Shown piece by piece: positions 41,237 to 44,690 of a DNA stretch of 64,000 bases (the stretch's first letter is position 1; every line of letters starts with the position of its first letter). The translations under genes and the position numbers were made by a program. Source of the DNA: Arthrobacter sp. B1805. Its GTDB lineage: Bacteria > Actinomycetota > Actinomycetes > Actinomycetales > Micrococcaceae. The stretch covers positions 1 through 64,000 of the forward strand of contig NZ_PJIQ01000008.1 in the NCBI RefSeq assembly GCF_002929745.1, read 5' to 3'. Under the pieces are notes generated by a model, which saw nothing but the letters and a program-made list of their open reading frames with translations, was not told the origin of the DNA and made no database searches.

Positions 41237-41364
41237 GGAGCCAAGCCTAGCGCTGGAGCAGCACAGCGGCAGTCGCCCGTCGTCGCGCCGTTGTCACGCC
41301 GTCGTCAGGTATGCGTCCCGCCGGCGCCGGAAAGGCGTCACGCTCGCGTCGGGCAGGAAGCGCG

Positions 41365-41414
41365 AAAAAATACCGCGGGCACTCCCTCCCCAGAAACGAG
41401 GGTGCCCGCGGTAT
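41365..41414 (-). terminator. Strong intrinsic terminator of the secreted-peptide gene
   Basis: ATACCGCGGGCAC (41370-41382) and its exact complement (41402-41414) form a 13-base-pair stem extended by a partly paired apex. On the minus strand it is followed at once by six T residues (41365-41370). It sits between the peptide gene and the FAH-family gene and is the most classical terminator in the window apart from the ilv attenuator. Confidence 0.88.
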
Positions 41415-41482
41415 CAGAACCGGCTCTGCAACCGGTGCAGCGGTCCTGCGCCCTACTGACGGGATGACCCGCCGACGGTTGG

Positions 41483-41623
41483 CTAGAAGGGCCAGGATCC
41501 GACACGGTCGGGAGAGGAGACGGGAGCAACGGTGCCCGACTTGGCCGGAGCCGCGTTGGCTGCTGCGGCGCCGCCGGTGATGATGAGGGTTGCGAGGAGG
41601 AATGCGGAGGTGATGCGCTTCAT
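41483..41623 (-). CDS. Secreted mini-peptide precursor (46 residues)
   Basis: A 46-codon gene. The N-terminus MKRITSAFLLATLIITGG is a clear Sec signal peptide, with an Ala-rich cleavage region ending ANA near residue 24. The remaining 22 residues begin APAKSGTVAPV and end DRVGSWPF. There are no Cys residues and no sign of a bacteriocin leader. AAAGGA lies 8 bases before the ATG. It has its own promoter-like sequence (41696-41723) and a strong terminator, so it is a single-gene transcript. It is divergent from a TPR protein. A signalling peptide, a processed wall peptide, or a small secreted protein of unknown use are all possible. Confidence 0.75.
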   Translation of the reverse strand: MKRITSAFLLATLIITGGAAAANAAPAKSGTVAPVSSPDRVGSWPF

Positions 41624-41695
41624 GGCAGGAGTCCTTTGGGTGGAATTGGCAGTGGAGGTGAGATACCGCCCAATACCACGAGCGGCTCGTCAATC

Positions 41696-41723
41696 ATCGT
41701 AAGCCACTCCAGCCACTTCTAAA
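41696..41723 (-). promoter_or_regulatory. Probable promoter of the mini-peptide gene
   Basis: On the minus strand TTTAGA (41718-41723) and TACGAT (41696-41701) are spaced by 16 bases, which leaves an untranslated leader of about 65 bases before the AAAGGA site. The divergent region has visibly lower GC than its surroundings. Confidence 0.45.
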
Positions 41724-41747
41724 CATTCTTGAGGCCTTTTTCTGAAG

Positions 41748-41773
41748 TATTGTCCGACCGAATCGCGGTCGGA
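41748..41773 (+). promoter_or_regulatory. -10-like element and palindromic operator before the TPR gene
   Basis: TATTGT (41748-41753) resembles a -10 box. It runs into a perfect 8-base inverted repeat, TCCGACCG (41753-41760) and CGGTCGGA (41766-41773) with a 5-base spacer, covering the expected transcription start. A dimeric repressor bound there would silence the TPR gene. The palindrome could alternatively form an RNA hairpin in the 5' leader. Confidence 0.5.
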
Positions 41774-41836
41774 TGACGAAAACCCGAATAATGGGATCGA
41801 GTTGCCCGATCAACGCGGAAGCCGAAGGTGCGCAGA

Positions 41837-42874
41837 ATGTACGGAGAAGCGGCGGGCCAGCGGTTGCTGCTCGAGCTACGAGCCCGCGACGCGTGGAACC
41901 AGCGGGACTACACGGGAGCCCAGAAACTGGCCGAGGAATTGGCGGCGGCGGCTCTCGAGGGCGGGGACGACCTCGGCTGGTGGAACGCTACGTTCCTGAT
42001 CGGGGAATGCCTGAGGAAACAAGGGCTCATGGAGGAGTCCCGATTCGTTGCAGATGAACTTGCCGGGCACCCTCTCACCAGGCGGTCGAGGGCACTGAGC
42101 GCACGGGTGTTCACCCTGCGGGCTTTCGCCCTGCAGGGCACCGGCGATCTCGCCACAGCAGTGGAGGCAGCGCGTCGTGCCGTTGCGGAAGCTCGGCTCG
42201 AGCCGGACCACAACGCCATCGTCATCGAGGCCCAGAATGCCCTCATCGCCGCACTGGCGGAAAGTGGCCAGCTCGAGGACGCCTGGACGGAGTGCCGCAA
42301 CCTCGCGGGACTTCTCGATGAGAACCCGGACAACAAGTACGCGGGCCAGTCCTACTGGGCTATCGGCAACGTGGCCTTCCTCCTCAAACACATCACCGAG
42401 GGAGTGTCCTACCACGAGCTCGCAGCGAAGACCCTGTCACCGACGAACGACCTCGATCTGTGGGCGCGATTCAATCGGGGATCGGCGGATTTCCGACTCG
42501 CAGCGGGTGTTATCGAGCCCGAGACGCTCGAGTGCATCGAGCGGGCCGAACTCGCCAGCTCCATCGTCGGAGGAACCGAGCGTGACCGTCTCGAGCTGAA
42601 GCTGATCCGGGCGCAATGGCTCGTCCTCACCGGGCAGTTCGAGGCCTCGATCGACCAACTGTCCGAGGTCATCGCCCACCAGGACCTCCTGGCGACCCAC
42701 GTCGCCGCGCAGGCCCACTTCCTCCAAGGGCAGGCACTCTCGGCGCGTACCAGCAACGCGGAGGCCGCGGTACACCTCGAGGAGAGCGAACAGCTCTTCC
42801 TGCGGTCGGGTGCCCGCGAACGGGCAGCAACAGCCCGAGCCCTGCTGGACACCCTGCGGGAGCAGCAGTCATGA
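41837..42874 (+). CDS. TPR-repeat protein without a DNA-binding domain
   Basis: A 345-residue soluble protein made almost wholly of antiparallel helix pairs (tetratricopeptide-like), for example RDAWNQRDYTGAQKLAEELAA, ALQGTGDLATAVEAARRAV, ALIAALAESGQLEDAWTECR and WLVLTGQFEASIDQLSEVI. No HTH, enzyme motif, signal peptide or membrane segment is seen. The ATG at 41837 has GAAGG about 9 bases before it; a GTG at 41828 is less likely. Size and all-TPR build resemble Rap-type peptide receptors, and a secreted peptide gene lies head-to-head with it. A general scaffold role is equally possible. A GGDEF-EAL gene follows on the same strand after 241 bases. Confidence 0.8.
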   Translation: MYGEAAGQRLLLELRARDAWNQRDYTGAQKLAEELAAAALEGGDDLGWWNATFLIGECLRKQGLMEESRFVADELAGHPLTRRSRALSARVFTLRAFALQGTGDLATAVEAARRAVAEARLEPDHNAIVIEAQNALIAALAESGQLEDAWTECRNLAGLLDENPDNKYAGQSYWAIGNVAFLLKHITEGVSYHELAAKTLSPTNDLDLWARFNRGSADFRLAAGVIEPETLECIERAELASSIVGGTERDRLELKLIRAQWLVLTGQFEASIDQLSEVIAHQDLLATHVAAQAHFLQGQALSARTSNAEAAVHLEESEQLFLRSGARERAATARALLDTLREQQS

Positions 42875-43115: not shown

Positions 43116-44690
43116 ATGAGCGCTGACCACAAGGACCCCCGACTCGCACTGCTGGTCGAGAGCATCGTGCGGCTCTCCCGGGGGGAACTCAGCAGCCGGA
43201 TCGAGCCCTCGAACGCGAGGGACGAAGTCGACGCCGTCATCACCGGCGTGAACCTCCTCGCCGAAGAACTCGAACAGGTCTACGAGCAGTTCGAGAAGCG
43301 CGTCGAGAGCCGGACGGCCATGCTCCGCCAGGCGCACCTCGACATGATGAAGATGGCGATGTCGGACGCTCTCACCGGGCTCGCGAACCGAGTGGCGCTG
43401 ATGGACGGCATCGAGGAGGCGCTGAGCCAGGCTGCGAACGGAGCGCCCCCTCCGGCCCTCCTGCTCCTCGACCTCGACAGCTTCAAGAATGTCAATGACC
43501 GCTTCGGCCACGACGCCGGTGACCGGGTCCTGCAGGAGGTCGCCGTACGCCTCACCAGCGTGGTCCGGGAGAGTGACCTGGTGGCGCGGTTGGGCGGCGA
43601 CGAGTTCGCCATCCTCCTCCCCGGTGCCACCATGGATGTCGCGATGCAGGTGGCCGGCCGGGCCCTGGAGGTCCTCGGTGAACAGATCAGGCTGGACTCG
43701 CTCTACGTCCACTCCCGGGCGAGCATCGGCGTACGGCTCGGAACCCCGGACCAATCGCCCGAGGAACTGCTCCTGGACGCCGACACTGCGATGTATGCGG
43801 CAAAACGCGAGGGCCGCAGCATCATCAAGGTCTTCGAGCCCGTCATGCTGTACTCGCGGCAGCTCCGGAGCCAGATGGCCACGGAATTGCGCGGAGCCAT
43901 CGGCGCCAACGAGCTGGTGCTCCACTACCAGCCCGTGGTGGAACTCGCCACGAACCGGATCCTCGGGGTCGAGGTACTGGTGCGGTGGCAGCACCCCGTG
44001 CGCGGGCTGATCCCGCCCGACACCTTCATCCCGCTCGCCGAGGAGATCGGGGTCATCCACGACCTCGACCGGTGGGTCATGTCCGCGTCCCTGCGCCAGC
44101 TGGCGCAGTGGCGCAAGGACTTCCCGCTCGACGACGACTTCCAGCTGCGGGTCAATCTCTCGGCCGTCGAACTCAAGCAACTGGACCTGGTGGACCATAT
44201 CCGCACCCTGCTGCGTGAGCTCGACCTGCCGGCCCGAAACCTGGTCGTCGAAATCACCGAGACCGCGATCGTGACGCGCGGGGAGGTCGAGATGTATTCG
44301 CTGCTCAGCCTCCAGCAGCTCGGCGTCGGCATAGAGATCGACGATTTCGGGACAGGCTATTCCTCCATCAGCTACCTGCGGGAACTCCCCGTCAGCATGG
44401 TGAAGGTGGACCGCTCCCTGCTCGTCGAGCTCAACACGAGGGCTGGCCAGCTCGAGTTCGTGGCCGCGATCCTGCAACTCATCCGCGCGGCGGGGCTCGA
44501 GGCGGTCTTCGAGGGCATCGAGACCCGCGAGCAGGCGAACCAGTTGCGGGCCCTGGGGTGCGCGAGCGGTCAGGGGTACTACTTCAGCCGCCCGCTGCCG
44601 GCCGGGGAAGCCGCCGCACTGCTCGCATCCACACGCCACCTCCGCATGGGCGAGGGAATCGACGGTCCGGAGACGATCTCCTCCCACTGA
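43116..44690 (+). CDS. Soluble GGDEF-EAL cyclic-di-GMP enzyme
   Basis: A 524-residue protein. Residues 1-80 are a HAMP-like/coiled-coil signalling segment without a membrane helix. The diguanylate cyclase domain has an intact GGDEF at 160-164 and an inhibitory RxxD site (RESD, 151-154) five residues before it. The phosphodiesterase domain reads EVL (286-288) in place of EAL, yet keeps the metal and catalytic residues: Glu286, Asn347, Glu379, Asp409-Asp410 in DDFGTG, Lys430 and Glu466 in EGIET. Both activities could be live. ATG at 43116 follows GGAG. The 241 bases upstream contain no gene. Input signal unknown. Confidence 0.92.
   Translation: MSADHKDPRLALLVESIVRLSRGELSSRIEPSNARDEVDAVITGVNLLAEELEQVYEQFEKRVESRTAMLRQAHLDMMKMAMSDALTGLANRVALMDGIEEALSQAANGAPPPALLLLDLDSFKNVNDRFGHDAGDRVLQEVAVRLTSVVRESDLVARLGGDEFAILLPGATMDVAMQVAGRALEVLGEQIRLDSLYVHSRASIGVRLGTPDQSPEELLLDADTAMYAAKREGRSIIKVFEPVMLYSRQLRSQMATELRGAIGANELVLHYQPVVELATNRILGVEVLVRWQHPVRGLIPPDTFIPLAEEIGVIHDLDRWVMSASLRQLAQWRKDFPLDDDFQLRVNLSAVELKQLDLVDHIRTLLRELDLPARNLVVEITETAIVTRGEVEMYSLLSLQQLGVGIEIDDFGTGYSSISYLRELPVSMVKVDRSLLVELNTRAGQLEFVAAILQLIRAAGLEAVFEGIETREQANQLRALGCASGQGYYFSRPLPAGEAAALLASTRHLRMGEGIDGPETISSH

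Follow-up and report, generated by a model that had tools for sequence, protein, structure and literature searches.

The locus at positions 41483 to 42874 of the window (the whole 64,000-nucleotide stretch of DNA analysed here, which belongs to a 3.8-Mb genome) raises the question of whether a small secreted peptide and the TPR protein encoded head-to-head with it form a signalling pair of the RRNPP kind in an actinobacterium. We consider, with a probability of roughly 80%, that they are an RRNPP-like pair of peptide pheromone and receptor, of the Rap-like type that has no HTH domain, acting via a c-di-GMP enzyme. The likeness to RRNPP systems would lie in the way of working, and no sequence homology to RRNPP receptors was found among PDB sequences.

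The putative pheromone precursor gene (41483 to 41623, minus strand) encodes 46 amino acids, translated as MKRITSAFLLATLIITGGAAAANAAPAKSGTVAPVSSPDRVGSWPF, and is divergent from the receptor gene, with 214 bp from start to start. Its product bears the marks of an exported protein (a basic start, a hydrophobic core and an AxA-like end, judged from the sequence and a hydropathy filter). Signal peptidase I cleavage follows the AxA rule, and the likely site lies between ANA and AP; the predicted signal peptide, for which conservation also speaks, covers residues 1-24 (41552 to 41623, minus strand). The ribosome-binding site AAAGGA is present at 41632 to 41637 (minus strand), and homologues have similar sites. 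An intrinsic terminator follows the gene (41364 to 41415, minus strand): its hairpin folds at -33.3 kcal/mol (z -4.7; 0 of 200 shuffles equal it) and leads into a U run. This terminator was absent from the list given by a consensus scan, which allows loops of 3-8. The earlier note on this DNA had described a 46-residue Sec peptide opposite a 345-residue TPR protein, with a good ribosome-binding site and a strong terminator of its own, and was correct in these points as well as in the ORFs, strands, lengths and SWPF end. The promoter-like boxes that it also saw stand in part: a sigma-70 scan gave 0 sites in the intergenic stretch, but one conserved block, AAGTGGCTGGAGTGGCTTACGAT (41696 to 41718, minus strand; a possible promoter or operator), is common to 19 aligned intergenic regions, the window's among them. 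The block occurs once in its own genome with up to 3 mismatches allowed, and it contains a GTGnCT/GTGGCT direct repeat. Because the window's receptor has no HTH, the block may be an operator for some other regulator.

The receptor gene (41837 to 42874, plus strand, with the GTG at 41828 as an alternative start) was delimited from its ORF, homologues and structural model, and encodes 345 residues. All of its Pfam TPR matches were sub-threshold, and neither Pfam nor an HTH profile made in this study found an HTH domain in it. The AlphaFold model (25 sequences) is all helix, with a pLDDT of 93.5 and a pTM of 0.86, and its top structural matches are TPR superhelices, including LGN (Z 27.4), NprR (20.9), Rap with peptide (20.4) and RapI (20.2); eukaryotic TPR proteins outrank NprR and Rap among the top 50 folds. 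These results agree with the description of an all-TPR protein without a DNA-binding domain. A model lacking a peptide groove would have spoken against a receptor role, and the TPR superhelix obtained gives a loose check on this point. When profile A1 was compared with PDB sequences, no RRNPP protein was found at E <= 1. Among 27 diverse receptors, W174, H193, W209 and N213 were invariant and N178 was conserved in at least 90%. The codons for W174 to N178 (42356 to 42370, plus strand; helix 169-182) and for W209 to N213 (42461 to 42475, plus strand; helix 206-222) are picked out by conservation and the model, and we take both helices to be inner TPR helices, where the TPR consensus would place these residues.

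The search of related genomes that the earlier note had proposed showed that the pair recurs across the genus and in other Micrococcaceae. In a first search all 35 genus genomes had the receptor, and none of 22 genomes from elsewhere in the order; with HTH-less and HTH forms pooled, it was found in 219 of 395 family genomes and 17 of 32 genera (E <= 1e-30). Named relatives of the receptor include Arthrobacter agilis, A. echini, A. ruber, A. bussei, A. cheniae and A. crusticola, together with other Micrococcaceae. The peptide search (E <= 0.06) matched the family peptide in 35 of 38 genus genomes, adjoining the receptor in 34 of these, while in G058 peptide and receptor lie on the ends of different contigs; weaker matches elsewhere were unlike the family. 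Direct reading revealed the peptide in G015 and G022, outside the 35 search matches, and G026 was not assessable, its receptor lying 95 bp from a contig end. The genus thus gave no case of a peptide without a receptor, which would have counted against pairing: the 35 matches, whether near a receptor or, in G058, on a contig end, fit the pair.

A divergent Sec peptide of the window's family was present at 69 of 70 usable HTH-less receptors from 64 genomes (nine numbered genera and one named strain), and 67 of the 69 peptides have a Trp-Pro core. The 70 come from 76 rows, assigned as HTH-less by the profile built in this study. Three of the six dropped rows lie at a contig edge (L083, the first copy of L085, and L087) and one is the second row of L096, a fragment of a frameshifted gene that is retained once; the last two (L143 and L196) are a broken HTH-less gene, apparently one gene twice, with no peptide and no GGDEF-EAL gene within the flank. 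Among the usable receptors, only copy one in G028 (L089) lacks a peptide. Loci outside the genus were hand-picked from the hit list, many of them from g31, and are not a random sample. Precursors in HTH-less relatives measure 45-71 aa. Two family precursors (L178 and L181) carry the F-P tails LFPVNFL and MFPIIFP in place of WP, possibly a natural shift in specificity. In 1.56 Mb of strand-bases there were 65 Sec-like, SD-preceded WP ORFs, and 59 were receptor-linked peptides; one of the other six, L097, belongs to the peptide family and sits at the end of a contig. A WP ORF at L193 was left uncounted, its tail being unlike the family. The reading of the peptide gene as a chance ORF was rejected on the strength of these 59 of 65 and of its dN/dS. 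We also observed the Arthrobacter gene order over 9 kb in a record titled Vibrio cholerae strain 35D (L123, WNZI01000017.1), which is a mislabelled or contaminated assembly.

The relatives also point to the signal itself. Single-copy precursors mostly end in [IV]GxWPx or [IV]NxWPx, and others repeat the signal, as in IGNWPHIGNWPH, KIGDWPNKIGDWPNIGDWPN and VGNWPNVGNWPN, or as three KVGNWPD, four IGNWPDP, six VGDWPH, or eight VGDWPH/VGNWPH. There are 2-4 copies in some HTH-less pairs and up to 8 in HTH-linked precursors, with a repeat unit of 6-7 residues. Abutting units, as in IGNWPHIGNWPH, speak for a mature signal some six residues long, and the equivalent hexamer in the window would be VGSWPF (residues 41-46; 41486 to 41503, minus strand).

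Across 18 genomes, of which 17 are window-like and one has IDDWPH, W44 and P45 were invariant and D39, R40 and V41 nearly so, whereas positions 42 (G/N/D), 43 (N/S/Y/G/A/D) and 46 (F/Y/G/H) varied. The pairwise dN/dS of the gene in the same 18 genomes was about 0.26, a rough value, with synonymous sites near saturation (pS 0.53). By part, and equally roughly, it was 0.24 for the signal peptide, 0.295 for the linker, 0.295 for the last eight codons and 0.57 for the final five. Over its whole length the tail is therefore no tighter than the linker, and consists of a fixed WP between variable flanks. The idea that the mature part is under constraint thus holds for W44/P45 and nearly so for D39, R40 and V41, but not for positions 42, 43 and 46; measured by dN/dS, the last eight codons equal the linker and the last five are looser.

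Duplications follow the same pairing. Two receptors stand in tandem in seven genomes, and an eighth (G022) has both on contig ends. In the five duplicated genomes in which both peptides are readable, copy A is accompanied by IDDWPH or IDNWPN and copy B by VGNWPD, IGNWPD, SGNWPD or VGNWPG. Each duplicated receptor, where readable, retains its own peptide type, so that the comparison of peptide C-termini with receptor types urged in the earlier note gave distinct types for copies A and B in all five genomes. The receptor tree groups the HTH-less receptors in a single branch (support 0.89), except for the diverged L185, L186 and L194. An exploratory test of co-change along branches (64 receptor-peptide pairs, 284 columns) gave as the best for the residue before WP three columns of the helix that carries W209 and N213 (219, 215 and 218), and for the residue one place further upstream columns 3 and 142, the best p being 0.0005 in both cases; for the last signal residue no column fell below p 0.008. 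Inner-helix columns made up 5 of the 7 top columns versus 121 of all 284, an excess that is not significant alone. Given 284 columns, this co-change is weak and suggestive only.

Sister receptors carry an N-terminal HTH (PF13560 over cut-off) together with TPRs. With an in-genus paralogue branch excluded, a WP peptide was found at 11 of 22 HTH+TPR receptors (21 genomes, 14 genera); a few of the HTH-linked precursors are long (101-117 aa), and no peptide was found at L204 or L205. The in-genus HTH+TPR paralogue (L099-L118; G000:C49:4331-5317 in the window's own genome) had a WP peptide at 0 of 20 loci and was rejected as a second pair; it may be an orphan receptor, or may respond to the window's peptide. 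An HTH-TPR model (pLDDT 84.9, pTM 0.53) has NprR and Rap in its top 50 matches, not leading, with eukaryotic TPR proteins again ranked above them.

Homologues extend beyond the family. Profile A2 matched 26 of 396 genomes of the order at 1e-15. Four of these belong not to the window's own family but to family f17, where 3 of the 4 best loci had a WP peptide (L219, L220 and L221), for example as three VGGSWPT copies; that of L221 is a single weak SDTWPA, and no peptide was found at L222 or at L239, a second locus in one of these genomes, with an approximate gene start. A search of the class matched 16 of 394 genomes at 1e-12, 10 outside the order, and WP peptides were found at 5 of these 10 loci (L227-L236), repeated in L228, L230 and L235 and single-copy and weaker in L231 and L236. 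In g144, a Streptomyces-like genus of large genomes, 21 of 101 genomes had a close homologue, and Sec peptides with IDWP, IEWP or IGWP were present at 10 of 24 loci (five divergent, five tandem), the 24 including two with too little upstream sequence (L258 and L271); no other such ORF passed that filter in 189 kb of strand-bases at these loci. The large genomes, and the close homologues that occur on named plasmids (in 37 records, Streptomyces accounting for 35), suggest that g144 is Streptomyces. A WP-type peptide was found in 3 of the 8 plasmid regions read, that of L244 lying about 1 kb off, past another gene, and a plasmid search with the window receptor as query gave 0 matches. Loci L254-L276, L241, L242 and L244 are Streptomyces-type HTH-TPR regulators with Sec peptides that end in or repeat IDWP, IEWP or IGWP, some of them on plasmids.

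One of the genes flanking the pair in the window encodes a HAMP-GGDEF-EAL protein (43116 to 44690, plus strand), a candidate c-di-GMP output enzyme by its Pfam domains and its linkage. An orthologue is present in 38 of 38 genus genomes, and in 37 of them it lies 3' of a receptor on the same strand, at most about 5 kb away; in one of those 37, G030, it has an in-frame stop. In A. agilis UMCV2 (G009:C1; L119 and G009:C1:1430752) the gene is split, its first part alone by the receptor and the rest distant, a rearrangement or an assembly error inside GGDEF-EAL. In other genera a GGDEF-EAL gene was near 28 of 28 usable HTH-less loci, upstream or downstream (upstream in L144, L171, L189 and L194), wider flanks being needed to see it at L170 and L185. 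It was beside the receptor in 0 of 46 HTH rows, of which 24 had at least about 4 kb of downstream sequence and 22 had 1.4-2.1 kb, four of the rows being named copies of others. The link between the pair and this gene, which the earlier note had offered as a possibility, is firm as genetic linkage. Pfam recognised HAMP, GGDEF and EAL in the protein and no sensor domain over cut-off; an outside input is thus plausible.

In 12 of 38 genus genomes a GT2 synthase gene separates the receptor gene from GGDEF-EAL; G084 and G081 show the same gene order, and such intervals also occur in two other genera. Pfam, applied to two examples, assigned the interval proteins to GT2 (PF13632; distantly related to CelA and PgaC), to CBM5/12 and to DUF7793; one of the two CBM5/12 proteins also has a GH18 match below threshold. 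Such interval genes were seen at L068:6307-10996, L065, L087, L249 and L250, with the CBM5/12 gene divergent. The window's own genome has no GT2 synthase at 1e-60. The interval is possibly an exopolysaccharide locus controlled by c-di-GMP, and the output of the pair would probably be exopolysaccharide or surface behaviour.

Several other explanations have to be weighed against an RRNPP-like pair acting via c-di-GMP. The peptide may be a signal and the TPR protein its receptor, with GGDEF-EAL a mere conserved or co-regulated neighbour and the true partner elsewhere, for instance a response regulator or an HTH-TPR paralogue. The genes that separate receptor from enzyme in 12 of 38 genus genomes, and the four loci with the enzyme upstream, by which a fixed operon is unnecessary, fit this reading, but linkage at 28 of 28 usable HTH-less loci in other genera against 0 of 46 HTH rows, and an enzyme plausibly open to outside input by its lack of a sensor domain above the Pfam cut-off, argue for a functional connection, and we regard a bystander enzyme as rather unlikely. 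Improbable, in our judgement, is an unrelated secreted or toxin-like peptide with the TPR protein as its chaperone, inhibitor or antitoxin, binding the precursor in the cytosol. The two genes are nearly always together and an unexported precursor could also fit a TPR groove, but such a role accords poorly with a short, often repeated hexamer (up to 8 copies) shared by distant members, with variable residues around an invariant WP, and with sister receptors that carry an HTH.

We give very little credence to an antimicrobial or modified peptide (RiPP) regulated by the TPR protein. A short precursor with a conserved core would suit it, and some plasmid-borne HTH-TPR regulators of Streptomyces have P450, NRPS or SARP genes in their vicinity, although one alone has a peptide beside it. 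Against it, the genes flanking the window pair encode an FAA hydrolase and the GGDEF-EAL protein, not modification enzymes, the precursor has a Sec signal, and the WP core is found in differing neighbourhoods. The RiPP and toxin-antitoxin readings were set aside in view of the repeated hexamer, the HTH sisters and the lack of modification enzymes adjoining the pair. Taken together, the pairing, the repeats, the purifying selection and the duplication as pairs favour what the earlier note had proposed, a peptide-receptor pair analogous to RRNPP in an actinobacterium.

For the preferred reading, a pheromone pair coupled to c-di-GMP, we infer the processing, import and binding of the peptide and its effect on the enzyme as follows. 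Sec would export the 46-aa precursor, and cutting would release a short linear signal some six residues long, namely VGSWPF in the window and [IV]GxWPx or variants in relatives. An oligopeptide permease would import it, which is possible because the window's own genome encodes 7 SBP_bac_5 proteins. The signal would then bind the groove of the cytosolic TPR receptor, and the state of the receptor would alter the activity of the neighbouring HAMP-GGDEF-EAL protein, a step to which the genetic linkage points. A density or kin signal would in this way become a change in c-di-GMP, probably for exopolysaccharide or surface behaviour.

It has been reported, in the accessible part of PMC10075063, that an RRNPP detector built on propeptide size (10-100 aa), export, receptor size, TPRs and adjacency was applied to Firmicutes and viruses, that SHP and PrgQ peptides are exported via PptAB, and that actinobacterial signals are typically small molecules. 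By the criteria available from that source, the window pair has every one of these features: a propeptide of 46 aa with predicted export lies adjacent to a receptor of 345 aa, within the 250-500 aa of RRNPP receptors with TPRs, and the superhelix model fits. The known range of RRNPP systems is Firmicutes and their mobile elements, and that of the present pairs is Micrococcaceae and Streptomyces plasmids; it is the range that differs, not the mechanism that we propose.

The nearest likeness is to Rap-Phr, in which an HTH-less all-TPR receptor also stands beside a short Sec-exported propeptide and the fold is similar (Z about 20). Solved Rap chains have 356-364 residues (RapI 359) versus 345 here, and no sequence similarity to the window receptor was found in the PDB set. 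Unlike Rap-Phr, the present system is found in Actinomycetota, has divergent genes and a Trp-Pro core, and repeats the signal in some members. The targets of Rap proteins belong to the phosphorelay, whereas a GGDEF-EAL enzyme is linked here. The HTH-bearing sisters, with TPRs and an exported peptide nearby, resemble PlcR-PapR, NprR-NprX, Rgg-SHP and ComR-ComS, but differ in phylum, in the WP core and in multi-copy precursors. In ComR, according to the accessible part of PMC5131891, Asn208 of a TPR helix holds the peptide backbone, and N213 and N178 here may be comparable. Gamma-butyrolactone signalling is likewise actinobacterial (PMC4748050, as far as accessible), but those signals are enzyme-made small molecules and the present ones are gene-encoded peptides. 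No actinobacterial RRNPP-like system was among the matches listed in our literature search, whose coverage left out preprints and many subscription journals, and none appears in the accessible parts of a 2026 review (PMC13220807), the 2016 RRNPP review (PMC4873490) or a review of quorum sensing in actinobacteria from the same year (PMC4748050).

More broadly, we think it somewhat probable that Actinomycetes as a class use a large, unrecognised family of Trp-Pro pheromones with cytosolic TPR receptors. An HTH-TPR branch would occur in Micrococcaceae, another family of the order and Streptomyces, and a Micrococcaceae HTH-less branch would have exchanged control of transcription for control of a c-di-GMP enzyme, forming a direct circuit from peptide to c-di-GMP. 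The repeats point to the signal sequence ahead of mass spectrometry, short linear signals are readily synthesised, and the natural variants of receptor and peptide (last signal residue F, Y, G, D, H or N) are ready-made tests of specificity. RRNPP-type signalling has so far been regarded, in the sources as far as accessible, as a Firmicutes trait. Gene-encoded pheromones in relatives of Arthrobacter and in Streptomyces would bring peptide signalling to the main antibiotic-producing phylum, and the HTH-less members hint at a pheromone that would act directly on c-di-GMP.
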